A DNA stretch of 32,811 nt from Lachnospiraceae bacterium (GTDB taxonomy: Bacteria; Bacillota; Clostridia; Lachnospirales; Lachnospiraceae). The notes below the pieces were generated by a model that had not been told where the DNA came from, searched no databases, and saw nothing but the letters and a program-made list of their open reading frames with translations. The stretch covers positions 1 to 32,811 of the forward strand of contig JAFZOW010000055.1 of assembly GCA_017552715.1 (NCBI GenBank). Reading direction: 5' to 3'. Of this stretch, positions 5,831 through 21,414 are shown in pieces (within the stretch, counting starts at the first letter, position 1; every line of letters starts with the position of its first letter). A program made the position numbers and the translations under genes.

Positions 5831-5908
5831 AGGCACAATCTGAGAAGGCATAAACTTTTGATTACCGGTCGTAACAGGGACGCTCCGGTACAGAGAAGGA
5901 GTTATGCC

Positions 5909-7741
5909 ATGAATACGAATTCCGTATCTCTCAATCCTGCCCAGGAAAAAGCGATCCGACACGGAAAGGGTCCCATGATGGTCCTGGCGGGTCCCGGTTC
6001 GGGAAAAACCTTCGTCATAACAAGAAGACTGCTTCATATGACCGGCGATCTTGCCATCCCGGCGGAACATATCCTGGTCATCACCTTCACCAAAGCGGCA
6101 GCGGAGGAAATGCGCAGGCGCTACACAGGCTTAAGCGGCGGCGGCCCCTGTGACATACGTTTCGGCACCTTTCATTCCGTCTTCTTCGAGATCGTAAAGG
6201 AGGCGCTGCATTACCGTGCAAGTGACATACTCACGGACGCACAGAGAAAACACTATGCAAAGGAGGTACTTTCGGAATTCCCGGAGCTGAAAGATGACGA
6301 GGCCGGTATCGAAGATCTGCTCTCTCTCATCTCCCGTTTTAAGAATGACGGCCGCTCTCCGGAAAGTTACAAAGCCGAATCGGGTCTGCTCTCCAGAGAA
6401 GATTTCATCCGCCTTTATCGCTCCTATCACGAGCTGCTGGATGAGGAGCATAAACTGGATTTTGACGACATGGTACTGAAATGCCACCGGCTCTTCATAA
6501 AGGAGCCTTTACTGCTCTCCCGCTGGCAGGACCGTTTCCGCTATATCCTGATCGACGAATTCCAGGATATCAATCCCATGCAGTATGCTGTGGTGAAGCT
6601 CCTGGCCGAGCCCCGCCGCAACCTTTTTATCGTCGGAGATGATGACCAGTCCATCTACGGCTTTCGCAGTGCGGATCCCGGCATAATGCTGGGCTTTCCC
6701 AAAGACTATCCGGAGCTGGAGCAGGTAAGCCTTTCGGTCAACTACCGCTCCTGCCCGCCCATTGTGGAAGCATCCCAGCGGCTTGTATCCCATAATACCG
6801 AACGTTACAAAAAGAAACTGAAAGCCGAACGCAGCGGCGATGCGGCTGTACATATCCAAAGCTGTGCGGACCGTTCCTCCGAAGCTTTGGCGATCTGTAC
6901 CCTGCTGAAGGAAGCCAGAAGGTACATGGGCTGGCGGGATATGGCCCTGCTCTTTCGGACACATGCCGGAGCCTCCTTTTATTCCCAGGCTCTTAGCAAA
7001 GCCGCTATCCCATTTTACCTGCGGGATAAGATCGTCAGCGTATACCGTACTCCCATAGGCATGGATATGCTGGCCATCATGGCCTATGCCCACGGGGAAC
7101 AGAGCCGGAAGAATCTTCTGCGTTTCATTAACAAACCCTCACGGAGTATACGCCGAGGCTGGCTGGATCAGGAAAGCATGCCTCTGTCAGACCTTCTATC
7201 CCGTCCGGGTCTGCCCCCAGATACCGCCTCCGCCATCCGGCGCCTTAAGGAGCAGCTTGATTACCTGGGCAGCCTGCCTGTATTTGCAGCTCTTATGTAT
7301 ATACGAAAAAGCATGGGGTATGAACGCTGGCTGAAAGAAGATACGGAAAGAAGCGGAAGGGATATGCAGGATGCTCTGGATACCCTCGCCGCTGTATGCG
7401 AAGCCGCAAGGGAATATGAGGATCATGAGGACTGGCTGGCAAGTGTTGCCGCCTACGAAAAAAAGATGTCCGAAAGCAAAGGTGCGGAAAACGAAGATGC
7501 GGTGCAATTGCTGACCATGCACGCCTCCAAAGGCCTGGAATACCGCCTGGTGATCCTGCCGGATGTGAACGAAGGCAATATCCCCCGGGCCCGCTCAAAA
7601 GGACCGGCTGAGCTTGCGGAAGAACGCCGACTCTTTTATGTGGCCATGACCCGCGCAAAAGACAGGCTCTTCATCTTCTGCAGGAAGAAAAACCCTAAAG
7701 AGCGTACACAGCCCAGCCGTTTTATAAAGGAACTCAGCTGA
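5909..7741 (+). CDS. UvrD/PcrA/Rep-type superfamily 1 DNA helicase
   Basis: The protein has 610 residues. All SF1A motifs are present: Walker A AGPGSGKT (27-34), motif Ia VITFTKAAAEEMRRR, motif II DEFQD (216-220), motif III GDDDQSIYGFRSAD (from 243), NYRS, then LLTMHASKGLEYRLVILP and EERRLFYVAMTRAKDRLFIF near the C-terminus. Such enzymes unwind DNA 3'-5' in repair and in clearing replication blocks. It is about 100 residues shorter than typical PcrA and lacks its C-terminal tail. I chose the ATG at 5909 because AGGAG lies 7 bases before it; a longer frame opens at 5858 without such a site. It ends 2 bases from the convergent DUF1292 gene. Confidence 0.92.
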   Translation: MNTNSVSLNPAQEKAIRHGKGPMMVLAGPGSGKTFVITRRLLHMTGDLAIPAEHILVITFTKAAAEEMRRRYTGLSGGGPCDIRFGTFHSVFFEIVKEALHYRASDILTDAQRKHYAKEVLSEFPELKDDEAGIEDLLSLISRFKNDGRSPESYKAESGLLSREDFIRLYRSYHELLDEEHKLDFDDMVLKCHRLFIKEPLLLSRWQDRFRYILIDEFQDINPMQYAVVKLLAEPRRNLFIVGDDDQSIYGFRSADPGIMLGFPKDYPELEQVSLSVNYRSCPPIVEASQRLVSHNTERYKKKLKAERSGDAAVHIQSCADRSSEALAICTLLKEARRYMGWRDMALLFRTHAGASFYSQALSKAAIPFYLRDKIVSVYRTPIGMDMLAIMAYAHGEQSRKNLLRFINKPSRSIRRGWLDQESMPLSDLLSRPGLPPDTASAIRRLKEQLDYLGSLPVFAALMYIRKSMGYERWLKEDTERSGRDMQDALDTLAAVCEAAREYEDHEDWLASVAAYEKKMSESKGAENEDAVQLLTMHASKGLEYRLVILPDVNEGNIPRARSKGPAELAEERRLFYVAMTRAKDRLFIFCRKKNPKERTQPSRFIKELS

Positions 7742-7743
7742 GC

Positions 7744-8040
7744 TTACAGAAGCTCGTCAAACTCCTGAGAATCCAGAAGCTCGTCGAAGGCATCGGAAGC
7801 CCGCTCGTATTCTTCCTCATCTTCGATATAATGAAGGCTGGGATTACCTTCTTCGTCTTCTTCATGACCGTAGATCCATACTTCGCCGTCTTCATTCTCC
7901 CCGTTCTCATCCAGGGGCAGCAGTGCGATGTAGTCTCTGCCGTCACACTCAAAGATCGCAACGATGGAGCAGTCTACCGTTCCGTCATCCAGCTCCAACT
8001 GCACATACATTTCGTCATCATCTTCATTCTTCTTTCCCAT
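7744..8040 (-). CDS. DUF1292 domain protein (YrzB-like)
   Basis: This is a small, very acidic 98-residue protein. ELDDGTVDCSIVAIFECDGRDYIALLPLDE, read in two blocks, followed by EVWIYGHEEDEEGNPSLHYIEDE, matches the DUF1292 family common in Firmicutes, whose function is unknown. The acidic C-terminus (DELLDSQEFDELL) is also typical. AGGGAGG precedes the ATG. It is the last gene of the minus-strand run and starts 14 bases after the HD-GYP-like gene. No terminator separates it from the oppositely directed helicase gene. Confidence 0.85.
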   Translation of the reverse strand: MGKKNEDDDEMYVQLELDDGTVDCSIVAIFECDGRDYIALLPLDENGENEDGEVWIYGHEEDEEGNPSLHYIEDEEEYERASDAFDELLDSQEFDELL

Positions 8041-8054
8041 GATATCCTCCCTTT

Positions 8055-10046
8055 TTAAGCTCTTATGTCTGCAGGAGTCCCTGCAGCGTCCTCACTTTTT
8101 GAGACTGTTCCCTTCAGATGGGCCTTTCCCCTGTTGTACATCTGCATCAGCATACCGAAGGTTTCCCTGTATAACCGGCTCCGATCGGCCTGCAACATAT
8201 AACGCAGATCGTTCACCACTGTCTCTTCCGATAAAAGCTCCGCCATGAAGGGAGCATATCGGGTACCGGCCCCTTCCTTCACTTCCACCAGAAAAGCCTC
8301 CAGCGTCTTTCCGTTACTATAGCTCCGGCCCACCCGGTCCGTAGCCGCATCCAGACTGTCCGCAACACTTACGATATCAATGATAGTCTTGTAGGGACTA
8401 TCCGCCGCATTAAAGTCCAGAGGGTATCCGCCCTTTCCATTATACCACAGATGATGCCCCCGCATCACATCCGCATATTCACGCACGGAATCAAAGCGCT
8501 CTGCCAGCTCAGCCCCTCTTTCCGGATGTTTTTTCAAAACAAGATATTCCTTATCCAGAAGTCTGCGCCCATACATTGCGATGGTATCTATTATGGTAAG
8601 CTTCCCCAGATCGTGATAAAGAGCAGCATGATAAGCATGATCCAATATCCGGTCACCGGCCGCCATAACAGCCTCCGTACTGCCACAGCCCGGAAAAGCA
8701 ACAAAAAGCTCCGGCTGCCGCTTAAGCAGATGCCTTGTAAGGCAGAGACTCAGCTGTGCCACCATACTTGAATGAACATAGGTAGGGGGATGGATGGCTA
8801 CAAGCAGGCGGATGAACAGCTCTCCGAAACTTATCCCCCCGGGGACTTCCCGGAAATCATCCAGGAAATTTGTAAGATTAGACACAACACTTTCCGCCAT
8901 TTCTCCGGCCCTGGCCAGAGAATAATAATACATCATGTCATAAGGTATACGCCTTTGGAGGGCCAGAATACGTTCCGGAAGCTTATCCCCCATCTCCGTA
9001 CGAAGCTTCTCTATCACACGGAATATAAGCGATGCGTTTGCAAGATTTTCATTTGTCCCCTGTCTGGAATAATCACTGCGGTCCCGTCTTTCATATCGTT
9101 CAATCGCTTCTTCCAGACGCCTGAACAGGGATGGATCCGAGATCTTTTCAGCACAGCTCATAACCAGGATCTTTACAAAATCCGGACCTACCATTTCGCC
9201 AAATGTCCCGCTTTTCCCTTCCGCCAGAAGTTTTTCGCAGATACAGGACGCTTCAAACGCCTCCCTGCACAGTTCTTCCGATAGTGTATCGGAATAAGAC
9301 ATCTCAGCGATATACTCATTACATATAAAAGAGTTCTCATCCCAGTCGCAATCCGGCAGCTGTTCCCTGTAAAAGGGATCTTTCTGAAGGTCCATCAGCC
9401 ACTTCAGCCTCCGGACCATTTCGGCAGGTTCATATACCTCGTACAAACAGGCCCCGAAACGTGCGTCGATCCAGACGAGCTTTCTGCTTTCCTCTGACAG
9501 TTTTGCAAAGATATCTTTTTCGAGAAAATGTACCATTTCCAGATAATCGGCTGTTACCAGCCTGTTTATCTTTCTGCATTCTTCTTTATCACCTGCACGA
9601 TAACAGGCACTGAAACGGTCATACAGGATATCAATACGCCGATCCAGTATATGGATCCTTTTTTCCGGATCCGTATCCGTATCCGTCTCCTCTTCATCCA
9701 GTTCCACACGCCCGTCCAGCCGGTCATTGATCATTTCCGCCAGATGTATATCCACACTACCTTCATGCTTTTCATTAAAAAGCAGCCCGTTCAGTTCATC
9801 CAGCTGAGCGGCTTCCTCCTCACTGAGCTGTTCTTCCCCATTTATCAAAGGCATGATCAGACGTTCCAGGATATCGGCATTTTCACGGGCCAGCGCCCCG
9901 ATCTCGTGAAAGTTATTCAGAAGCAGACTGCTGTAATCCTCTGCATCTTTCACTTCCTCTATGGAAGGCGCGGAAAGACGGCGCACCGTCTTCAGACGTT
10001 CCGCATATGAAGTCAGGGCCTCTTTTATCTCTTTACTCCGTTCCAT
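8055..10046 (-). CDS. HD-GYP-like metal-dependent phosphohydrolase with long helical N-terminus
   Basis: The protein has 663 residues. The C-terminal third carries an HD-type site: HDLGK (His478, Asp479), HPERG (His507), GHHLWYNGKGGYP (His531, His532, GYP at 540-542) and VADSLDAATDR (Asp563). This matches the HD-GYP class, some members of which degrade cyclic di-GMP, but the usual Glu after HH is Leu here, so the substrate is uncertain. Residues 1-450 are helical and charged with no domain I recognise. There are no membrane segments or receiver domain, so it should be cytoplasmic. GAGGA precedes the ATG. It sits 14 bases after the MATE gene. Confidence 0.75.
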   Translation of the reverse strand: MERSKEIKEALTSYAERLKTVRRLSAPSIEEVKDAEDYSSLLLNNFHEIGALARENADILERLIMPLINGEEQLSEEEAAQLDELNGLLFNEKHEGSVDIHLAEMINDRLDGRVELDEEETDTDTDPEKRIHILDRRIDILYDRFSACYRAGDKEECRKINRLVTADYLEMVHFLEKDIFAKLSEESRKLVWIDARFGACLYEVYEPAEMVRRLKWLMDLQKDPFYREQLPDCDWDENSFICNEYIAEMSYSDTLSEELCREAFEASCICEKLLAEGKSGTFGEMVGPDFVKILVMSCAEKISDPSLFRRLEEAIERYERRDRSDYSRQGTNENLANASLIFRVIEKLRTEMGDKLPERILALQRRIPYDMMYYYSLARAGEMAESVVSNLTNFLDDFREVPGGISFGELFIRLLVAIHPPTYVHSSMVAQLSLCLTRHLLKRQPELFVAFPGCGSTEAVMAAGDRILDHAYHAALYHDLGKLTIIDTIAMYGRRLLDKEYLVLKKHPERGAELAERFDSVREYADVMRGHHLWYNGKGGYPLDFNAADSPYKTIIDIVSVADSLDAATDRVGRSYSNGKTLEAFLVEVKEGAGTRYAPFMAELLSEETVVNDLRYMLQADRSRLYRETFGMLMQMYNRGKAHLKGTVSKSEDAAGTPADIRA

Positions 10047-10060
10047 TATATTCCTCTGTG

Positions 10061-11437
10061 TTATTTTACAGCCACTCTGTTTTTATCCTGCATTCTGCGT
10101 ATCAGGATAAAGCAGAGCAGATGCACTCCCGCAGTCAGTGCCCAGGAGATTGGATAGGATTTATATAATAATGTCAGATCATGATGTTTTTTAAATACCG
10201 TAAATATCCACAATATGCGGAAGCCACAGGCTCCCAGCAGTGATACCACCATAGGCAGTATCCCGTAACCCAGCCCCCGCAGGGAACCGCAAAGCACATC
10301 CATGATGCCGCAGAGCAGATATGTGGTCATGATCACGCTCATACGCAGCATACCGTAATCCACCACCCTGGGATCTTCGGTATAAAGCCCCAGCAGGGGA
10401 CGTCCCGCCAGATAAAAGCCCCAGCCCATGCTCAGACCCACTATGCTCACGATCACCAGGCAGCCGGCCAGGATCTTATTGATACGTTTATACAGCCCCG
10501 CCCCAAAATTCTGTGAAGTAAAGCTGATGGAGGTCTGATAAAGCGAATTCATGGAAGTATAAACAAAGCCCTCAAGATTGGCGGCAGCCGTGTTTCCGGC
10601 CATGGCCGTAGAGCCGAAGGAATTGACCGAGGACTGTATGAGCATATTGGAGAAAGAAAAAACCATGCCCTGTAAACCGGCCGGCAGACCGATCTTCAAA
10701 ATACGTGCTGCAATGCGGCTGTTGTAACGCACCTTCCTAAGTTCCAGACGCCAGGATGCAGAAGAAGCCATGAGGGTACGAAGCACCAGAATGGCGGAAA
10801 GCGTCTGGGAAAGTACTGTAGCCAGCGCCACCCCTTCCACATTCATGCCCAGATACTTCACAAAGATGAGGTTCATGAACACGTTCAGCACTCCGGCCAT
10901 AGTCAGGTAATACAGAGGCCTCTTGGTATCACCCACAGCCCTGAGTATGGCTGAGCCGAAATTGTAGAGCATGATCAGGGGCAGGCCGGCAAAATATATG
11001 CGCATATAAAGCACTGCCTGCTCCAGCGCATTATCCGGCGTTGCCATAAGGATCAGGATGGGCCGGCAGAACACTATGGCAGGAACCGCTGCCACCACCC
11101 CAAGAAACAGGCAAAGGGCAATGGAGCAGTGTACGGTATCCGATACTTCCTTATCCCGCCCGGCTCCGTAATAACGGGCCACCATCACGTTGCAGCCCAC
11201 GGAAACACCCATGGTCACGGTCACGAAGAAATTGATCAGAGCCATGGTGGCACCGATGGCCGCCAGGCCGCTCTCGGCCAGCTCCGGTGTTCTTGCATAA
11301 CGGCCGATGATGACCATGTCCGCCGCATTAAACAATAGCTGCAGTATACCGGAGAGTATCAGGGGTACGGAAAAAAGCAAAAGCTTCGGGACCAGCGGGT
11401 CCGTACGCATATCGATCTCGTACTTTTTATCCTTCAT
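10061..11437 (-). CDS. MATE family multidrug/cation antiporter
   Basis: The 458-residue integral membrane protein has about twelve hydrophobic segments in two similar halves. The start region (MRTDPLVPKLLLFSVPLILSGILQLLFNAADMVIIGRY, quoted here only for its character) and the phrases GATMALINFF, SVGCNVMVARYYGA and LRAVGDTKRPLYY are typical of MatE/NorM proteins. They export drugs or metabolites using a Na+ or H+ gradient. The substrate cannot be read from sequence. The gene starts 12 bases after gltX and is followed by the HD-GYP-like gene after 14 bases, so it is probably part of the long minus-strand transcript. Confidence 0.9.
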   Translation of the reverse strand: MKDKKYEIDMRTDPLVPKLLLFSVPLILSGILQLLFNAADMVIIGRYARTPELAESGLAAIGATMALINFFVTVTMGVSVGCNVMVARYYGAGRDKEVSDTVHCSIALCLFLGVVAAVPAIVFCRPILILMATPDNALEQAVLYMRIYFAGLPLIMLYNFGSAILRAVGDTKRPLYYLTMAGVLNVFMNLIFVKYLGMNVEGVALATVLSQTLSAILVLRTLMASSASWRLELRKVRYNSRIAARILKIGLPAGLQGMVFSFSNMLIQSSVNSFGSTAMAGNTAAANLEGFVYTSMNSLYQTSISFTSQNFGAGLYKRINKILAGCLVIVSIVGLSMGWGFYLAGRPLLGLYTEDPRVVDYGMLRMSVIMTTYLLCGIMDVLCGSLRGLGYGILPMVVSLLGACGFRILWIFTVFKKHHDLTLLYKSYPISWALTAGVHLLCFILIRRMQDKNRVAVK

Positions 11438-12931: not shown

Positions 12932-15049
12932 CTAACCTTTCCGCCTATAGTACCATATGGCTGTCCCTGCGACAAGCAGCACTCCGGGAAGCAGCAGGAT
13001 AAAGAGCAGGCTGCATACATCCCTCGCCCCGTTCCCCACCAGAATGGGATCATAGGCATAGGCCTTTACGGGCACATCCACAGCATCCTCCGTTTCACTG
13101 ACGGCAGAGAGACATTTCATAAACAGGTCGTAATTGCTGCCGTTCACAGCCCGGTTGATATCCTGGGAAAGGAAATAATCCGACGAAAAACAGACGGCCC
13201 GGCTGACACCCTCCGGCAGATAGCGCGTTACCAGAACCCCCAGCGAAAACGGCCCCTCTTCCTTATCCCGGCCCAGGTCCACATAGGCCTTGTCCCCGGT
13301 CGAAAGGAAAGTACGCGCGCTCACATCCGCCGTCTCATGCAGCTTAAGCCCCTTTGCATAGGGCATATAGACAAAACGCGTACGGCCGGCGGTATATATC
13401 CCTTCCGTAAGTTTATCTTCCACGATCTTCGGAAGCAGGTATTCGCCCGAATTATTGTAATACTTGGGATCTGTTTCACAGACCAGGCCGGGCAATACCT
13501 CTATGCCGTATTCGGCCAGCAGCGAATAATACTTCTCGGGTTCGGCAGCTGTCTCGGAATAGGCAGTGGCAAATACCGCCCCTTTCCCCTTATCCAGAAA
13601 ACGCTTCAGCTTTTCCAGATCTTCATCGTTCAGATCCCGCAGTGGAGCCAGCAGAAAAACGATGTCCCCATCATCCGGTATATCTTCATGCTGCAGCAGA
13701 TTGATGCTCTCCAGCTCGTACATGCTGTTAGCTATGCGGCTTTCCAGCTCGTTTTCGGGAACGAATTCTTCATGCCCGCTTAAGCAGTAGATCTTCGGTA
13801 CATGTTCACTGGTAACATAGAGGATGGCTGAAAGGATCTTTCCTTCCCCGTCATAGCCCGAGACAGTATAATCCGTAGTCACATATCCGCCGCTGGCCAC
13901 ATCATAAGCATAATCATAGCTCAGCTGGAAGCAGTCATAATAATCCACAACCCGGCTCTTTTTTGTCCCGCAAACGATGATGCTGCCCGGTGCGGGCTGG
14001 GCATCCGCGTAGTTCAGATAAAAGTCAGGCTGCTCCGCCGGGTCCACATAGTCGATCTTGATATAGGCCGACGCCTCCTGCATACGCTCCAGGGTATTGG
14101 ATACGGCCTCGTCCTTATCTTCGGGATCGCATAAAACATAGATCTGCACGGCTTTATCAAGGCCGGCCAGGGTCTGCTTTGTGGTTTCCGTTATAGAATT
14201 TATACCATTGTAGCTCAGATCGATACGCTTCGCCTCCGAAGGGAGATTGCGAAGAAAGAGGTTCAGGGCGATCACCGCAACAAATACCAGAAGGGCCTTG
14301 AAAAGACTGCTCAGGGCTCCCATCACTCCCTGGGTCTGAACATGGAAACGCCGAACGGTAAGCGCATAATCAGCAAAAAACAGGCACAGCCCCGCTACAG
14401 AAAGATAAAACACATGATCCGGCCAGTGAAGTACGCCGTAGAGGCTGTACTTGAAAGGTCTGGTAAGATCCAGGAAACGCAGAGCCTCCGTAAAGGCGTT
14501 GCCTTCCCGGCTGATGAGTCCGGAAATGCTCCCGGTCATGGCGCTTAAGAGCAGTACAAAAAAGGTGAGTACCGCAGCGATCAGCTGGTTTTCCGTAAGG
14601 GCCGAGATCAGCACTCCTATCCCCAGAGCCGCCAGTCCGAAAAAGAAAAAGGTAACGACAGCCAGGATATTTTCCGCCAGGGGCACCGGGCCGTAGATCC
14701 TCAGGATCAACGGATAGATGAGCAGCACGGGAAAGACCGGAAGATAAACACAGACAGCCGCCAGGTATTTCCCGACAACGATCTGCCACACCGGCACCGG
14801 AGAGGTAAAGAGCAGCTGGTCCGTATGATGCCGCTTTTCTTCCGCAAAGCTTCGCATGGTGATCAGGGGCAGGGTAAAGATAAAGATGAAGAGCACCGCG
14901 TTCAGCTCGTAGGACAGATAGGGATAACCCTTCGTAAGCCCATACTGCCTGAAGTACCAGCCCAGAAAGAACAGCGTTACCGAAAGGTAGATCCAGCCCG
15001 TCAGATTGCGAAAATGGCCGAGCCACTCTTTTTTAAAGATCGCCCGCAT
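12932..15049 (-). CDS. Fused ABC permease and GldG-like extracytoplasmic protein
   Basis: The protein has 705 residues in two parts. Residues 1 to about 235 hold some six membrane segments typical of ABC-2/GldF permeases (TLPLITMRSFAEEKRHHTDQLL is a family landmark just after the second segment). Residues about 250-670 form a large extracytoplasmic GldG-like domain, and a final segment spans about 678-698 before a basic end (YYRRKG). GldF and GldG are separate proteins in gliding Bacteroidetes; fusions occur in Firmicutes, where the cargo is unknown. The start lies inside the ATPase gene (17-base overlap) after GAGGAGG. Together the two genes should make one transporter. Confidence 0.82.
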   Translation of the reverse strand: MRAIFKKEWLGHFRNLTGWIYLSVTLFFLGWYFRQYGLTKGYPYLSYELNAVLFIFIFTLPLITMRSFAEEKRHHTDQLLFTSPVPVWQIVVGKYLAAVCVYLPVFPVLLIYPLILRIYGPVPLAENILAVVTFFFFGLAALGIGVLISALTENQLIAAVLTFFVLLLSAMTGSISGLISREGNAFTEALRFLDLTRPFKYSLYGVLHWPDHVFYLSVAGLCLFFADYALTVRRFHVQTQGVMGALSSLFKALLVFVAVIALNLFLRNLPSEAKRIDLSYNGINSITETTKQTLAGLDKAVQIYVLCDPEDKDEAVSNTLERMQEASAYIKIDYVDPAEQPDFYLNYADAQPAPGSIIVCGTKKSRVVDYYDCFQLSYDYAYDVASGGYVTTDYTVSGYDGEGKILSAILYVTSEHVPKIYCLSGHEEFVPENELESRIANSMYELESINLLQHEDIPDDGDIVFLLAPLRDLNDEDLEKLKRFLDKGKGAVFATAYSETAAEPEKYYSLLAEYGIEVLPGLVCETDPKYYNNSGEYLLPKIVEDKLTEGIYTAGRTRFVYMPYAKGLKLHETADVSARTFLSTGDKAYVDLGRDKEEGPFSLGVLVTRYLPEGVSRAVCFSSDYFLSQDINRAVNGSNYDLFMKCLSAVSETEDAVDVPVKAYAYDPILVGNGARDVCSLLFILLLPGVLLVAGTAIWYYRRKG

Positions 15050-16007
15050 CTTCCGCCTCCTCTTCTTCCTCTGTATCCCTTGACTGGGTCAGTTCCAGAT
15101 AGACCTCTTCCAGGCTCACCTGTTTGTTCTCCAGCTCCAGTATGGTATAGCCTGCCTCGATACAGGCTCTTGAAAGCGCAGCTCTTATATCCTTCCCCCG
15201 TTCCGCACAAACCTCTATGGTGGAACCGAAGGAGTCCTCCTTCAGCACCCTGTGGCTCTCCACGTGCTCCAGCAGATCTATGGCCCGCTCGGCCGCAGTG
15301 GATGAACCGGAAAGCACGATACGCAGATGCTGCTGTTCATTCACCTCAAAAAGAAGCTGTTCCGGCGTATCATCCGCCACAAGCTTACCGCCGGAAAGCA
15401 CCATCACATGATCGCAGAGGCTTTCCACCTCGCTTAAGATATGAGTGGAAAAGATCACGGTATGATCTTCCTTAAGAGAACGGACCAGTTCACGCATTTC
15501 AACGATCTGCCTCGGATCCAGTCCGGAGGAAGGCTCATCCAGTATGATGATCTCGGGATCTGCTATCAGAGCCTGGGCAAGTCCTACGCGCTGCTTAAAG
15601 CCTTTGGAGATCTGTTTTGTCAGATGAGAATAGACGTATTTCAGCTTCAGCTTCTCTCCCACACGGTCCACTTCCGCAGCAGCCGCTTTTCCTTCCAGTC
15701 CTTTCAGCTCAGCCGCGAACATCAGGCTTTCCCTAACGGTAAGGTCAGGATATAAAGGGGGCTGCTCCGGCAGATATCCGATCTGCCTCTTGGCCCGTGC
15801 CGGCTCTCTGAACAGTGAGATATCATTGATCAGGATATTCCCCTTATCCGGGGCGAGATAGCCCGTGATCAGGTTCATGGTGGTGGATTTGCCCACACCG
15901 TTGGGGCCCAGAAATCCGTAGATCTTTCCTTTTTCCGCCTCAAAGGAAATGTCCCTCAGGACCTTCCTGTCTCCGTATGCTTTACTTAAGTGTGTAACCT
16001 TTAACAA
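15033..16007 (-). CDS. ABC transporter ATP-binding protein (GldA/NatA type)
   Basis: The 324-residue protein has Walker A GPNGVGKST (34-42), a signature region reading ISKGFKQRVGLAQAL instead of the canonical LSGGQ, Walker B IIILDEPSSGLDP and the switch His in HTVIFSTHILSEVE. The SKGFKQR variant is usual for the GldA-like group that pairs with ABC-2 permeases. A C-terminal part of about 100 residues ends in an acidic stretch (TEEEEEAEDAGDL). The start codon is TTG, 7 bases after GAGGGA. It overlaps the upstream gene by 7 bases and the downstream permease by 17 bases, which points to strict co-expression. Confidence 0.9.
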   Translation of the reverse strand: MLKVTHLSKAYGDRKVLRDISFEAEKGKIYGFLGPNGVGKSTTMNLITGYLAPDKGNILINDISLFREPARAKRQIGYLPEQPPLYPDLTVRESLMFAAELKGLEGKAAAAEVDRVGEKLKLKYVYSHLTKQISKGFKQRVGLAQALIADPEIIILDEPSSGLDPRQIVEMRELVRSLKEDHTVIFSTHILSEVESLCDHVMVLSGGKLVADDTPEQLLFEVNEQQHLRIVLSGSSTAAERAIDLLEHVESHRVLKEDSFGSTIEVCAERGKDIRAALSRACIEAGYTILELENKQVSLEEVYLELTQSRDTEEEEEAEDAGDL

Positions 16008-16846
16008 GTGTATTCCCTCAATTCCGCCAGAGCGGCCGCCCGCTCATACATTTCCGGAAAATCCCGGCGCATGCGCAGCATACAGCGTCGAACAAAAGCT
16101 TTCTGCTCATCCCGGTTATATTTGAATACGTTCTTATGCCCCCAGAGGTGCGTGAACATCTTCTGTTCCCGGAGATGCTCTATGCGCTCGCAAAAGGCAA
16201 AGGTATTTATGCCCAGACTGCCTGCCACCATAGGCAGGATACGCTGCTCCGCAAAGACCATGGGGCAGAGCATATCTTCATGTTCCTCACAGTTCTGCAT
16301 GAAACGAAGGGACTCGGAAACATACGCATCCCGAAGCACCTCATCCCGCATAAAGAGCAGCGCTGTATTGGCAGGACGGATATTAAAATCCCAGCTTTTC
16401 GGAAAATGGTATCCCTTTGCCATACGGAAGAGTCCGGGATCTGGATAGATCTCGGGATTCAGCTCTTCTCTGTGGATCACTGCAAGGGATGTCCCCTTCA
16501 GCTGCTTCCCTATCCCCTGCCATACGATCAGATCGGTATCGATCATAGCTGAGGGAAGATCCTCCATGGACAGTGCACAGAGCTTGCCGGCGGCCCAGAA
16601 CACCTTCGGATCGATCCCTTTCGGTACAGACAGGGCTTCCAGCCCCCGGGAAAAGATACGGTCCAGATCCCGTTCAAGAAAATATTTTGTCGCAGCCTCA
16701 TCGGCATACAGGCGGCTTTTGCCGTTATATCTTTCCCAGCACGCTACGGACAAAAGCAGGCAGACCAGGTCGTGATCCGCCATGGCAAAGCCTTTCCCTG
16801 CCTCCGCTGCGGAAGGTGCCGTCCAAAGTGAGTAAAAACCGTTCAT
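16001..16846 (-). CDS. Glycosyltransferase-like protein of unknown specificity
   Basis: This 281-residue protein has no signal peptide or membrane segment. The N-terminal half reads like a GT-A-type fold: SLLLSVACWERYNG-type helix, RLYADEAA (Asp49), KVFWAAGKLCAL and then PSAMIDTDLIVWQ with an Asp-Thr-Asp motif (103-105), which recalls the DxD metal/nucleotide-sugar site. It resembles the uncharacterised DUF6734-type glycosyltransferase-like proteins, an assignment I hold only moderately. The C-terminal part contains LGINTFAF and THLWGHKNVFKYN. The ATG overlaps the GSY-repeat gene's stop (ATGA), and its own stop overlaps the ABC ATPase start. A modifying role on the Ser/Tyr-rich neighbour is a guess from context. 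Confidence 0.55.
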   Translation of the reverse strand: MNGFYSLWTAPSAAEAGKGFAMADHDLVCLLLSVACWERYNGKSRLYADEAATKYFLERDLDRIFSRGLEALSVPKGIDPKVFWAAGKLCALSMEDLPSAMIDTDLIVWQGIGKQLKGTSLAVIHREELNPEIYPDPGLFRMAKGYHFPKSWDFNIRPANTALLFMRDEVLRDAYVSESLRFMQNCEEHEDMLCPMVFAEQRILPMVAGSLGINTFAFCERIEHLREQKMFTHLWGHKNVFKYNRDEQKAFVRRCMLRMRRDFPEMYERAAALAELREYTC

Positions 16847-17967
16847 ATCAGATCCAGTCCGTAACCCAGTTCCCAGCTTAAGCGCCGCACACCGAAAACA
16901 GAAGGGCCGGCATTATAGAAGTTTTCTTCCGGATACGGAAGAAGCTCCGACTCCTGCAGCGGCTCGGAAAAGCCGCCACGGGTAAAACTGCCCCTCTGAT
17001 AGCTTCCTGCATAGTAGCTGCCGGTAAAGAAGCTGCTCCGATGAAAACTCCCGTAGGATTGATACCCAAGATAGGAACCCTGGGAAAAGCTGCCGAATAT
17101 CCAGCGTCCGAAGCGGAAGCTCCCGGCAAAATAGCTGCCACCAAAGATCCCGGAAAAGCCGCTCCCGGCGCCGTAAAGATAACGATAACTGCCGCCTCCG
17201 AAGAGCCAGCTCAAATAGCTGCCGCTCAGGCCTCCGGCACGGTAACTGCCGCCCTGTGCCTGATAGCTGCCGCCGTAGCTTACATATGTACCGCCGTAGC
17301 CGGAAAAACTCCCGGTCACATAACTGCCGGTGACATAACTGCCTGCAGATAAAGCCGTGCGATAACTCCCTCCGGGATAACTGCTCCCCGGGTATGCACG
17401 ATGGAAGAAACTCCCGCCGGGATATGAGCTCCGGCCCCTGAAAAAGCTGCCGGAGAAGTAACTGCCCCGTAAAGGGCCCGAACTGCGGCGCTTCTCCTCT
17501 TCCGCAGGGCCTGAAGGATCCTTTCTGTCAGAAAAACAGAGTCCCTGCGGGGTAATGCACTCGCAGCCGTTAAAATACAGATCGTAGATCCGTTCCCCAT
17601 CGGCAACTGCAAGCTCTTCAGCATGAAGCATCCCCAGCTTGGAATAAAGCTTTATAAATATCGGCAGCCCGTGTCCCAGAGCCAGAAGCTCTTCCGCTTC
17701 ATCTCTGCCGCAGTGCATCATAAAACCGCCGGAAGGCAGGGGAGGGGTAAGCTTTTTATTGCACTCCCCGTTCCAGAGCACATACACAGCAAAAGCTGAA
17801 AATTCTTCGCAGTAATTCTCCCGCGTCAAAAAGGCATATCCCGCATGGAATGCCGAAAGCTCGTTTATTCGTTTGTCATAGGCCGGAACCGTCTCTGCTT
17901 CGGCTCTGTCCAGCCAGTCAAATCGTCTTGCCACTTTCTCTTCTTCTTTCAAATGCGCACAAAGCAC
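16843..17967 (-). CDS. GS[Y/F] repeat protein, first gene of the ABC operon
   Basis: The protein has 374 residues. Residues 1 to about 150 form a Cys-containing globular-looking part (six Cys) with no family I recognise. Residues 167-333 carry 19 GSY or GSF triplets plus variants (SSY, GTY, GGF). The aromatic-to-aromatic distance is most often 5 or 10, with 7, 8 and 9 also seen, so it resembles an irregular pentapeptide-repeat coil. Residues 334-374 form a non-repetitive tail ending YGLDLI. There is no signal peptide. The ATG at 17967 has no Shine-Dalgarno site; a GTG at 17931 (residue 13) follows AAGAAGAGAAA and may be the real start. It overlaps the glycosyltransferase-like gene by 4 bases. 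Confidence 0.7.
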   Translation of the reverse strand: MLCAHLKEEEKVARRFDWLDRAEAETVPAYDKRINELSAFHAGYAFLTRENYCEEFSAFAVYVLWNGECNKKLTPPLPSGGFMMHCGRDEAEELLALGHGLPIFIKLYSKLGMLHAEELAVADGERIYDLYFNGCECITPQGLCFSDRKDPSGPAEEEKRRSSGPLRGSYFSGSFFRGRSSYPGGSFFHRAYPGSSYPGGSYRTALSAGSYVTGSYVTGSFSGYGGTYVSYGGSYQAQGGSYRAGGLSGSYLSWLFGGGSYRYLYGAGSGFSGIFGGSYFAGSFRFGRWIFGSFSQGSYLGYQSYGSFHRSSFFTGSYYAGSYQRGSFTRGGFSEPLQESELLPYPEENFYNAGPSVFGVRRLSWELGYGLDLI

Positions 17968-17987: not shown

Positions 17988-18017
17988 AAAAAAAAGCGCT
18001 TTTCCAGCGCTTTTTTT
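17988..18017 (-). terminator. Rho-independent terminator of the M6-like protease gene
   Basis: An A-run, AGCGCT (17995-18000), a 5-base loop, AGCGCT (18006-18011) and a T-run form a symmetric hairpin. Read on the minus strand, the stem is followed by eight U residues. It could also work on the plus strand, where seven T follow. Confidence 0.85.
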
Positions 18018-18022
18018 CATAC

Positions 18023-18048
18023 GGCAGCGCGGATGATCCCGCGCTGCC
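18023..18048. repeat. GC-rich hairpin just after the protease stop
   Basis: GGCAGCGCGG (18023-18032) pairs perfectly with CCGCGCTGCC (18039-18048) around a 6-base loop. It lies between the stop codon at 18059 and the terminator, with no U-run of its own, and may protect the mRNA 3' end. Confidence 0.7.
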
Positions 18049-18058
18049 ATAGCTTAAC

Positions 18059-21000
18059 TTATTTCTTCTTGCTCTTTTTCAGTTTGAAGGTCACCACCTG
18101 TGTTCCAAAGTACAATTCGGAATCATGGGTGTCCGTGATGATCATATAGACCTTTCCGGCCTGCTCATTCGCCACGAAGGAAATATCAAGTTCTTTAGTA
18201 TTCAGATTTCCTGCAGCATCCGTAATGGGGTCATAACCCTTAGGCAGCTTGATGGTATAATCCTTACCGTACACAGCCTTGACAGAACCGCCCTCTGCGC
18301 TCAGGCTGCCTTTCTTCTTCTTCACCTTGAGCTTTTCGATCACGTTCTTATCCTTGACCTGCAGATAATTATCTACATAGCCGGTAAAGTTATTCTTACC
18401 CATCACCCGGATAAAGTAAACGCCACCATCCTTAACGGCATTCACCGGCTTCCCGTTGTGATCATAATACATCACATCAAAGTCCTTGGAACTGATCTTG
18501 ACCTTTTCTCCATTCGGCCATACCAGACAGGGCTGGGGCTTCTGTGCCTTCCCTGTATACTGTACTGCACAAGTATAGAGAACAAGATCCTCGTACACAT
18601 TGGCAGGGCGGATGATAAAGCTGGCTTTCTGGGCTTTTTCCTTCTTATAGTTCCCCTTAAACTTAACCTTCACTTCCGCAGTTCCGGCATTTTTGTTCTT
18701 TTTATAAGTCAGCTTGTAATCCTTGCCCGCCTCCAGCTTCTTGATGCCGTCGTATACAGGCATATCCGGTTTCAGGTTCTTTCCGCTGTAGCAGACATCG
18801 TCGATATAGCCCACCCAGCGTTTCTGGGTATAACCGCCGGCATAGAATTCCGCCAGAGTCATGGTACCGCCCAGATCAAGGCTGATCTCTCTTGCCACAT
18901 CTGTCCATTCGTTTCCGAACTGCGCTTTCAGAAGCTCCGTCAGTTCGGGAGCTGCCTCATCAACCACCGTAACCTTACATAGCGCAAAGGATTGGTGGGC
19001 GGTAGAAATAATGATATCCGCATTTCCCTTCTTCCTCGCCAGGAGCAGGTTATCCCCTTTGATACTTACCACGGAAGTATCACTGCTTTCATAGTACAGG
19101 GTAGGATCGGCTTCTTCATGTCCCACAAAAGCAGCGTTCAGTTTAAAGTATTCACCAACAGACAGTGTAAGTTCTGTTCTTTCCGGCACTGCTTTTTCGA
19201 TCAGATATTGCGCATAAGTACGCTTGGTCGCAGGAAAACCATCCGCCGTAAAGGCCTGTGCCTTAAATACCGCACTGTTTTCGATCTTGATGGCTTCCTT
19301 ATACTCTGCAGAGGTAGCCTCCGGCTCGGTGCCATCCAGGGTATAGCGGATCACGCTGCCTTCGGGCGCTCCGCTTACCGTAAGATCAAAGGCGTCGTCA
19401 TATACACCGCTCAACTTCGACAGAGTAAGCTCAGGAGCCCCCTCCACAAAGCTAAAAGGTATGAGCAGATCGTTAGCCGCAACTCCTGCCGCGGAACTGA
19501 TCATGCCTTTAGGCAGATACAGAACCGCATCCGTCATACGTACACTTTCCGGATCCAGCATGAAGTAAAAACGATCCGAATAATGAGAGTAGGATTCGTA
19601 TCTGTAATCCCTGCGGATATCCCAGATCGCTTCCCAGTTCTCATCAACAGCAGGCGCCAGGGTGAAAGGATCCACATCATAGATCTCGGCAGCCATATCC
19701 TTATTGATATTTACCGACTGGTCAAAGATCACTTCGACTATACCGCCAAAATCTTCGTCAATGCCGACTCTGCAGGACTTTACTTCAGGGCGCTTGACCC
19801 CATCATCAAAATCAACATGGAAGCTGAGGGTTCCGCCCTCTGCTTTGGTATTGATATCCGTAATGGAAATACCGCTGGATACCATGGTGCAGTCTGCAAG
19901 ATAACCGTAGCCGTTACTGTCCTCATAGAATACGGAGGAAGGATCTCCATCTGCGAGCAGGCTGTCACCTTCACGGAAAAAGCCGAAACGTTCATCGCTG
20001 GCACATCTGTAATTCTCGATGAGCGGGATCATATAGTCCAAACGGTTGCTTGACGCAAATTCCGCTCCCCAGGGAGCCAGGTGTGCATAAACATGAAACA
20101 GACGCAGGCCGTCGGCAGGCTGTACCTTCGGATCCCTCAGGCACCAGTCGGGGAGAACATCATTTTTCGTTGAAGTGTAATATTCCGCAAGTATGAACTG
20201 GGAATAGACACCGTAAGCCTCTTTTTCTTCCGCAGGAAGGATAACGGCTATACTGCCGCTTTCTGCATAAGGATCCAGGACAACATCGCTGTCCGTCGTC
20301 ACCCACTGGATCTTCTCCTCCGGGATCCATCCCAGGAGCATCTTGGCAAAGCCGTCCTGGTCTCCGAGGTTATTACTCATCATGGCAAAGGAATTGATCT
20401 TTGCCATATCACTCTCATAGGAATAATAATCATCCAGTCCAAGCTGATGCCCCGTTTCATGAACAAAAGTATTCAGATAATCGGTCACATCATCCAATCC
20501 GCTTTCCTCATTATATGTATCCAGAACCTGGATAACGGCAGGGATCGTATAATCACCGATATGGATGCGGCTGTCTCCGGTACGATAAGCCCACCACTGA
20601 CTGCTCCAGCCGGTATTACCGCCGGCAACCGCCAGATAGCAGCCGTCGATGCACATATCTCCGTTCGCATCAAATTTTGCGAGATAATCATTCAGGTACT
20701 TCAGATCGGATATCCCGGAATCAGCAGCATTCCCGGAAACGATCTGCTTTGCCCAGTTGTCCAGCACTTCCTGGTAAAGCACATCATTGCTTCCCGTAGC
20801 ACTGTCATACCAGGAACGCTCATGCTCGGAAACATAATCGATAATATCGCCCTGGATATCCAGTGTTCCGAAGGATGCTCTCTGGTAATAAGCCCTAAGG
20901 CTCTCAAAAGGATACAGCGGGTCATCCTTACTGCTTTCGGAATCCGGCATAAAGATCTTCTGTTGAAGTTCTTCCTTGAAGCCGGCTTTGAATTTTTTGT

Positions 21001-21379
21001 CGGCAAATTCCGTCATGATCACAAGGGTATTCACATCCCCCTCGGAAGGCATCATGACATTGATACCGGTAACGGGCAGTTGCATTCCGTCGGCACGGGC
21101 CTCCACTCCTTCAGGCTGGTACTCGTCCAGATTGCCCATCAGCCCTGTCAGGGAAGAGCCCTTTTCCTCTTCATCGATCTTCTCAATGTAGACAAAGCTT
21201 CCGGGAGCCGCTTGTGCGGTCTCTTCTTCCGCTTCCTCTTCTGTTACGACCTCTTCGGCCTCCGCCTCAACTACCGGCTCATCATCACCGGCCGCCAGGC
21301 TCGTAATGGATGCCGAAAATGTACTCTCAACCGTGAGAGCCAAAGTCAGCAGGTACGTCACGAACGATCTTCTCTTCAT
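18059..21379 (-). CDS. Secreted M6-like zinc metalloprotease with C-terminal surface modules
   Basis: The protein has about 1106 residues. A signal peptide (KRRSF then a hydrophobic core ending near SLAAG) is followed by an acidic linker. The protease part has HETGHQLGLDD (His309, Glu310, His313 in the longer numbering) and a later FAMMSNN Met-turn-like segment, as in the M6 (immune inhibitor A) family. Downstream are a chitobiase-like module (IRYTLDGTEPEATSAEY), a Big_2-like Ig module (about 755-830) and two copies of a surface module (CYSGKNLKP...GKDYKLTYKKN and QYTGKAQKP). The C-terminus is basic (KKSKKK) with no LPXTG. GGGAG lies 6 bases before the second ATG (21379) but abuts the first (21385). 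It likely degrades extracellular proteins. Confidence 0.85.
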   Translation of the reverse strand: MKRRSFVTYLLTLALTVESTFSASITSLAAGDDEPVVEAEAEEVVTEEEAEEETAQAAPGSFVYIEKIDEEEKGSSLTGLMGNLDEYQPEGVEARADGMQLPVTGINVMMPSEGDVNTLVIMTEFADKKFKAGFKEELQQKIFMPDSESSKDDPLYPFESLRAYYQRASFGTLDIQGDIIDYVSEHERSWYDSATGSNDVLYQEVLDNWAKQIVSGNAADSGISDLKYLNDYLAKFDANGDMCIDGCYLAVAGGNTGWSSQWWAYRTGDSRIHIGDYTIPAVIQVLDTYNEESGLDDVTDYLNTFVHETGHQLGLDDYYSYESDMAKINSFAMMSNNLGDQDGFAKMLLGWIPEEKIQWVTTDSDVVLDPYAESGSIAVILPAEEKEAYGVYSQFILAEYYTSTKNDVLPDWCLRDPKVQPADGLRLFHVYAHLAPWGAEFASSNRLDYMIPLIENYRCASDERFGFFREGDSLLADGDPSSVFYEDSNGYGYLADCTMVSSGISITDINTKAEGGTLSFHVDFDDGVKRPEVKSCRVGIDEDFGGIVEVIFDQSVNINKDMAAEIYDVDPFTLAPAVDENWEAIWDIRRDYRYESYSHYSDRFYFMLDPESVRMTDAVLYLPKGMISSAAGVAANDLLIPFSFVEGAPELTLSKLSGVYDDAFDLTVSGAPEGSVIRYTLDGTEPEATSAEYKEAIKIENSAVFKAQAFTADGFPATKRTYAQYLIEKAVPERTELTLSVGEYFKLNAAFVGHEEADPTLYYESSDTSVVSIKGDNLLLARKKGNADIIISTAHQSFALCKVTVVDEAAPELTELLKAQFGNEWTDVAREISLDLGGTMTLAEFYAGGYTQKRWVGYIDDVCYSGKNLKPDMPVYDGIKKLEAGKDYKLTYKKNKNAGTAEVKVKFKGNYKKEKAQKASFIIRPANVYEDLVLYTCAVQYTGKAQKPQPCLVWPNGEKVKISSKDFDVMYYDHNGKPVNAVKDGGVYFIRVMGKNNFTGYVDNYLQVKDKNVIEKLKVKKKKGSLSAEGGSVKAVYGKDYTIKLPKGYDPITDAAGNLNTKELDISFVANEQAGKVYMIITDTHDSELYFGTQVVTFKLKKSKKK

Positions 21380-21414
21380 ATTCATCTCCCTCTCTTAAGA
21401 TTTTTATAAATCAT

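Follow-up and report, generated by a model that had tools for sequence, protein, structure and literature searches.

A two-gene cassette of Clostridia and Selenomonadales pairs a predicted DUF6734 glycosyltransferase with diverse partners sharing a C-terminal GYGLDLI-type tag

Our findings highlight a pair of adjacent genes in a 32,811-nucleotide stretch of a Lachnospiraceae bacterium genome (assembly GCA_017552715.1, contig JAFZOW010000055.1, forward-strand positions 1 to 32,811; hereafter the window). One gene encodes a serine-containing repeat protein that ends in the heptapeptide GYGLDLI, and the other, directly 3' of it, encodes a protein of Pfam family PF20508 (DUF6734) that is predicted to adopt a GT-A glycosyltransferase fold. 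Tails of this kind accompany DUF6734 genes across Clostridia and Selenomonadales, usually immediately upstream and in one genus on another contig. The pair may well constitute a protein-modification module, in which DUF6734 docks on the tag and O-glycosylates serines of its partner, apparently a route to sugar-modified proteins that has not been described before. Neither DUF6734 nor GYGLDLI was named in the literature searched, which covered few subscription papers, and the titles and beginnings of abstracts in that literature contained no description of such a pair.

Results

The conserved tail and its association with DUF6734

The features of the pair are as follows.

16843..17934, minus strand: GS[YF]-repeat protein with C-terminal tag, proposed as acceptor; 363 amino acids, GTG start
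17545..17904, minus strand: folded N-terminal domain, residues 11-130 (AlphaFold2 predicted local distance difference test, pLDDT, 78-97 per block of 10)
16984..17466, minus strand: GSY/GSF repeat region, 19 triplets (pLDDT about 30)
16846..16866, minus strand: C-terminal tag GYGLDLI, proposed DUF6734 docking tag
16001..16846, minus strand: DUF6734, predicted GT-A glycosyltransferase, 281 amino acids (AlphaFold2 pLDDT 92.7)
16532..16540, minus strand: Asp-x-Asp (D103, D105), metal/nucleotide motif
16133..16150, minus strand: H-x-W-G-H-K motif, candidate C-terminal metal-binding His

The original prediction, which described a four-gene operon led by the repeat protein, left out the C-terminal GYGLDLI that became the informative feature. 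Repeat proteins of the window's genus vary in length and repeats, and those complete at the C-terminus finish in [LM]GYG[LI][DNG]LI, a few with one additional Trp. In a wider comparison, we compiled 72 distinct genes for DUF6734, which come from Clostridia, Selenomonadales and Verrucomicrobiota (loci L032-L145, with identical DUF6734 stretches merged; locus L117 is cut by a contig start, and a fragment in genome G020 has no locus). In 64 of these 72, a G-Y-G-[LI]-x-[LIRN]-I frame lies within 400 nucleotides 5'. Most such frames stop exactly at the tag, and five Selenomonadales partners and L091 extend 4 to 12 residues past it. None of the 69 tails departs from the Gly-Tyr-Gly or from the final Ile, and the tails are encoded by 64 distinct 21-mers with synonymous codons freely used. 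The eight genes with no 5' tag comprise five of genus g154, two of Verrucomicrobiota and one cut by its contig. Both Verrucomicrobiota genes (L115, L116) directly follow another gene, which we take to be adenylate-cyclase-like, and possibly represent a branch with another partner. At L057, the roughly 180 nucleotides 5' of DUF6734 hold near-identical tandem copies of the tag DNA, three reading GYGLDLI and one GYGPDLI, which is a local duplication of the gene end.

Occurrence of the tag was also assessed across 391 genomes of the class, 20 of which (10 of 223 genera) contain DUF6734; a further 57 DUF6734 loci came from a genome collection. A degenerate tag pattern closed by a stop (or Trp) codon matched 16 of the 391, comprising 15 of the 20 DUF6734 genomes and one of the 371 others, where it closes an open stretch of 15 residues. 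The five DUF6734 genomes that the pattern missed (G214, G246, G289, G393, G434) carry the variants GYGLELI and GYGLNII just 5'. All five g154 genomes, whose DUF6734 has no adjacent tag, carry the tag on another contig, at the end of Ser/Gly-rich proteins or peptides (one cut by a contig start). Fisher tests, which ignore kinship, gave p 5.5e-22 for tag and DUF6734 overall and 1e-10 for these trans cases against background. At the g154 loci (L135, L139-L142, L222-L225) the two genes lie apart, each with its own neighbors. DUF6734 follows genes that we assume to be mltG-like and trmR-like, and in the four genomes examined the tagged gene sits before a common neighbor, presumably U32-peptidase-like. 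In Bacillus these genes are neighbors of one another, hinting that the g154 arrangement is a split of one cassette.

A unit of two genes

A search of 98 genomes found DUF6734 relatives in 34, namely 33 of the 35 of the window's genus (its own included) and G084 of another genus. A profile of the repeat protein's N-terminal domain (A3) matches 32 of these 35 genomes and none of 109 others, which makes the domain nearly genus-confined, and the repeat gene is thus tied to the transferase gene as the original prediction had supposed. The only genomes of the genus that lack both genes are G008, at 72% completeness, and G016, at 81%. The repeat gene stands directly 5' of DUF6734 wherever one contig carries both; the contig of G011 terminates within the pair, and in G012, G015 and G023 a separate contig carries the N-domain match, DUF6734 being close to a contig end. 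Named relatives are Lachnospiraceae, many from the rumen (NK4A179, AB2028, XPB1003, NC2008).

No third gene recurs across all lineages when the neighbors are read by eye; the coherent unit comprises two genes, DUF6734 and its tagged partner, and not four. Some neighbors recur locally. A membrane protein gene, which we take to be YihY/BrkB-like, lies 5' of the tagged gene in L112, L134, L136, L143 and L144, and a gene that is presumably GAPDH-like is found nearby in L092, L094, L097, L101 and L134.

DUF6734 as a predicted GT-A enzyme

The window protein narrowly passes the PF20508 gathering cut-off of 27 bits (27.7 bits, residues 5-187). A six-frame genome search returned a shorter stretch at 24.2 bits, below the cut-off, and no other match in 249 genomes of the phylum, so that the Pfam model reaches the window's branch poorly. 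The original prediction had described a transferase-like protein with an Asp-Thr-Asp motif, and this description holds: a GT-A fold is confidently predicted, the modeled structure is similar to those of retaining enzymes, among them glycogenin, UGGT and LgtC, and the Asp-x-Asp is invariant in 27 of 27 sequences. Equally invariant are H233, W235, G236, H237 and K238 of the H-x-W-G-H-K motif, which may bind metal by analogy with the C-terminal histidine of GT-A enzymes. The likeness to GT8 and glycogenin is purely structural, as no GT8-type sequence model was matched, PF20508 is the sole Pfam family at E<=1, and a profile search of Protein Data Bank (PDB) sequences returned no glycosyltransferase at E<=1.

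The window repeat protein and the diversity of tagged partners

GTG 17934, and not 17967, is the probable translation start of the repeat protein, because 22 of 23 aligned relatives open with Met followed a few residues later by [FY]-x-WL, L053 being the sole exception. The 19 predicted GSY/GSF triplets are present, their start positions falling between residues 168 and 326 in the numbering of the original prediction. Within residues 161-340, shuffling yields a mean of 2.2 such triplets and 0 of 5,000 shuffles reach 19. Successive [GSTA]S[YFW] motifs usually lie 5 or 10 residues apart, and 14 of the 21 spacings are multiples of 5 (binomial p 4.5e-6). The protein matches no Pfam family at E<=1, hence no pentapeptide-repeat family, and its first 60 residues contain no signal-peptide-like stretch (highest 19-residue mean hydropathy 0.42); 22 of 23 aligned relatives likewise open directly with this domain. 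Whether such repeats form a beta-helix or are disordered was raised at the outset; the window repeats are predicted to be disordered beside a folded N-terminal domain, and a beta-helix is possible in some lineages. Versions of the N-terminal domain 28-29% identical to that of the window occur in L091 and L096, which were placed in alignment A3 by eye.

Across lineages the tag terminates proteins with different N-terminal types (the window type, MKLLLMFF, CLW...WL, Selenomonadales and g154), and none of ten partners scanned has a Pfam family over cut-off. Most partners are proteins of about 140-460 amino acids. Smaller products are tagged as well: those of L112, L127 and L152 have about 60 residues, and, with the last ATG taken as the start, Cellulosilyticum (L099) and G084 (L052) encode 23-residue peptides, MSYWELEYDGEQSGVGGYGLELI and MTSISNVETTSGSGLEGYGLNLI, respectively.

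Most partners carry Ser beside small residues ahead of the tag. The motif is GS[YF] in the window's genus, GSQ in L096 and L091, [GST]S[FY] in L105, L109-L111, L134, L136-L138 and L143-L145, and (SG)n in eight partners (L092, L094, L095, L097, L098, L100, L101, L103; GS z-scores 5.2 to 7.4). In a shuffle test listing 40 of the 69 partners, the small-Ser-aromatic motif of 17 exceeds all 500 shuffles. Repeat spacing depends on lineage, being mainly 5/10, 7, 4, 14, 13 or 6; the Ser motif is therefore kept while its period changes. Forty of the 69 partners have at least six spacings, with at least half of these multiples of 5 in 22 partners and under 30% in 14, and a single beta-solenoid for all repeats was accordingly rejected as not general. 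When eight relatives were compared with Pfam, L030 matched Pentapeptide_2 (E 1.9e-34) and L024 matched LbR_Ice_bind, an ice-binding beta roll, over cut-off, and five had no match; judged by these matches, some relatives look solenoid-like. L053 matches NigD_N (32.7 versus 24.3 bits, with no single stretch passing), which probably reflects its repeats.

Two compositional features were also observed. Alternating aromatic-Glu stretches such as YEYEYEYE are present in 8 of the 69 partners, from several families (L044, L053, L110, L136, L138, L143, L152, L154), and L042 and L043 contain Asn homopolymers (at least eight N) within the repeat region.

Neighboring genes in the window

Four further features flank the pair.

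12932..15049, minus strand: GldF/GldG-like fused permease (Pfam ABC2_membrane_3, ABC_transp_aux), co-located, not obligate
15033..16007, minus strand: GldA-like ATP-binding cassette (ABC) ATPase (TIGR03522), co-located, not obligate
17988..18051 (about), no strand assigned: double hairpin, likely bidirectional terminator, at the boundary between the M6 protease and repeat genes (-42.5 kcal/mol, z -7.34, 0 of 200 shuffles)
18059-21385, minus strand: M6-type metalloprotease, 1108 amino acids, with a chitobiase C-terminal-like domain (TIGR03296, 71.4 bits, below the cut-off of 110.8)

The four minus-strand open reading frames of the predicted operon lie where they had been placed and overlap by 4, 7 and 17 bases. 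The transporter proteins reach none of the NCBIfam gliding-motility equivalog cut-offs (GldA 299 of 402.6 bits, GldF 88.1 of 288.5, GldG 16.3 of 389.85). Of the 29 loci fetched, 28 belong to the same genus, and 23 of these 28 have the transporter genes 3' of the pair; the genes are absent there from the other-genus locus G084 and from five same-genus loci that keep the pair (L042-L046). GldFG was not detected genome-wide (E<=0.001) in G002, G004 and G027, each 99-100% complete, and G003, G026 and G034 have only a 31-32% identical copy on another contig. Thirteen other genera contain GldFG relatives, some of them weak, and the genomes searched in these genera are without DUF6734. The neighbors of distant cassettes are different ones. 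The ABC transporter, which had been expected to handle the repeat protein, was thus rejected as a core component, being separable from the pair both in same-genus loci and genome-wide. The ABC genes are best seen as a lineage neighbor, perhaps co-transcribed with the pair.

The M6 metalloprotease gene, located between a dUTPase-like gene and the repeat gene, was likewise rejected as an operon member, since the hairpins intervene and no homologue occurs in any of the 29 fetched loci of relatives. The double hairpin has no entry in the consensus scan. Housekeeping genes make up most of the surroundings: GltX, an anaerobic ribonucleotide reductase and its Fer4_12 partner, the dUTPase-like gene, RNase H, and MutS-like and UvrD-like genes. 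At 5858-11437 of the window, HD-domain and MATE genes sit between the UvrD-like gene and GltX; relatives' loci that hold both of the latter have no HD-domain or MATE gene between them, and their UvrD-like gene is oppositely oriented. Concerning a mobile origin, relatives were confirmed in none of the IMG/VR, plasmid and phage collections, and five proteins had no match in PHROGs.

Discussion

We favor, with moderate confidence, a two-gene module in which the partner's tail serves as a docking signal. In the proposed mechanism, DUF6734 would act as a metal-dependent GT-A enzyme using a nucleotide sugar. It would bind the C-terminal GYG[LI]xLI tag of one dedicated partner and, once docked, pass sugar to serines of the partner's flexible stretch. 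In most lineages many acceptor serines would be available, presented in Gly-Ser, (Ser-Gly)n or small-Ser-aromatic motifs, and the tag and acceptor tail would have been joined, depending on lineage, to N-terminal domains unrelated to one another or to short peptides (roughly 23-60 residues). Docked serine O-glycosylation accounts jointly for four observations: the fold of the enzyme, the invariance of the tag, Ser motifs that persist as their period shifts, and the trans cases. The computation itself establishes the gene pair, the tag, the fold and the joint occurrence, whether in cis or in trans, and catalytic activity, docking and serine as the acceptor are inferred. More tentatively, and with some doubt on our part, GYG[LI]xLI could be a portable glycosylation tag across Clostridia and Selenomonadales, with one GT-A enzyme per genome sugar-coating the preceding Gly/Ser stretch of unrelated, apparently non-secreted proteins and peptides.

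Several observations weigh against docked serine glycosylation. In the shuffle test 23 of the 40 listed partners fail for the small-Ser-aromatic motif, eight of these being the (SG)n partners, and Selenomonadales L104, L106-L108 and L113 and the short L052, L099, L112 and L127 contain one to few SG. The two Verrucomicrobiota DUF6734 genes have no tag in the 5' region, where it was looked for. The Fisher p-values are optimistic because the five g154 genomes are one lineage. Template modeling scores of DUF6734 against known glycosyltransferases are modest (0.3-0.5), and RmlA-type nucleotidyltransferases are likewise among its structural matches. Finally, the invariant Tyr of the tag is itself a possible acceptor.

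This last point underlies the chief rival, a glycogenin-like primer in which DUF6734 glycosylates the tag Tyr (or one Ser), the carbohydrate is extended, for example by glycogen synthase, and the repeats act as spacer or granule scaffold. Glycogenin is among the best structural matches, Tyr is present in every one of the 69 tags, and a GlgA-family protein was found in 25 of 25 DUF6734 genomes tried. However, GlgA also occurs in 71 of 80 DUF6734-lacking genomes (Fisher p 0.11; chosen at completeness of at least 90%, nearest families first, and not at random), a difference on which the glycogen link was rejected as not significant. As no glycogen gene was recognised beside DUF6734 in loci read by eye and the persistence of Ser motifs is left unexplained, we regard priming on the tag as rather unlikely. 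Alternatively, the partner could be a scaffold, adaptor or chaperone whose tag recruits DUF6734 while another molecule (a polymer, lipid or other protein) receives the sugar. The folded N-terminal domain of the window protein, the N-terminal parts that differ by lineage and the partners with little Ser would fit such a role. In most lineages, however, it is the Ser-rich part and not the N-terminal domain that keeps its composition, and products of roughly 23-60 residues offer little to scaffold; we therefore attach little weight to recruitment of this kind.

Export of the repeat protein as a secreted glycoprotein through the GldA/GldFG transporter, which would make all four genes one system, draws on the 23 of 28 same-genus loci in which ABC genes follow the pair and on the 7- and 17-base overlaps in the window. 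The five same-genus loci that keep the pair without ABC genes, the three near-complete genomes without detectable GldFG, the other neighbors of distant cassettes and the missing signal-like hydrophobic stretch make this quite improbable. A translational-coupling or regulatory leader element for DUF6734, in place of a protein tag, might be suspected from a tail that lies just 5' of DUF6734, often overlapping it, and from the existence of short products. It is contradicted by the five genomes with tag and DUF6734 on different contigs, the tag DNA is distinct in 64 of 69 cases and the distance from tag to DUF6734 varies; a leader or ribosome-binding site was rejected as the cause of the conserved tail on synonymous variation, spacing and trans cases, and we consider it hardly credible.

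Comparison with known systems places docked serine glycosylation near several of them. In serine-rich repeat glycoproteins, repeat Ser/Thr receive sugars, with GtfA/GtfB, before export by accessory Sec, and in both systems dedicated glycosyltransferase genes lie near a serine-repeat acceptor (PMC6973325). The window pair differs in having one GT-A enzyme, a C-terminal tag and no long signal peptide. Some tagged partners are as short as about 23-60 residues, and in a Pfam scan covering 18 genes of the window none was recognised as an accessory Sec gene (SecA2/SecY2/Asp). Glycogenin (GT8; PDB 1ll0, 3rmv) shares the GT-A fold, the DxD and a protein acceptor, though its acceptor Tyr lies on the enzyme itself, whereas the acceptor proposed here is a protein of its own, and no link with glycogen genes emerged. 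Glycogenin also bears a C-terminal binding motif behind a variable linker (PMC9188544). Glycocins and other ribosomally synthesized and post-translationally modified peptides resemble the pair in having a recognition segment outside the modified part and, as far as some lineages of the pair are concerned, a small precursor gene next to that of the glycosyltransferase; the window partner, in contrast, has 363 amino acids, most partners measure about 140-460 amino acids although some are short, the tag is C-terminal, and no peptidase or exporter set was recognised by eye beside the distant cassettes. Glycocin enzymes also belong to another family. UGGT (GT24), YeGT and the Skp1 galactosyltransferase AgtA, the top structural matches of DUF6734, are GT-A enzymes acting on proteins, but they are about 9-14% identical to it and have other acceptors, and none is known to use a GYGLDLI-type tag. 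The (SG)n stretches of the eight partners resemble serglycin, L100 giving a weak Pfam Serglycin match (E 0.08, below cut-off), but the two are not homologous by any test applied and serglycin's glycosyltransferase family differs.

In summary, a Pfam domain of unknown function gains a testable enzyme class and a partner, and our analysis offers a reason for the existence of a group of low-complexity proteins in anaerobes of the rumen and gut. With trans cases and short peptides at hand, the model is readily testable. If the portable-tag reading is true, protein glycosylation in these bacteria would include a system that follows recognition rules of its own. If the tag serves for docking, it would provide a seven-residue handle that steers O-glycosylation to a chosen flexible stretch, which may prove useful in glycoengineering, and the protein glycosylation of bacteria would gain a branch that is apparently not secreted.

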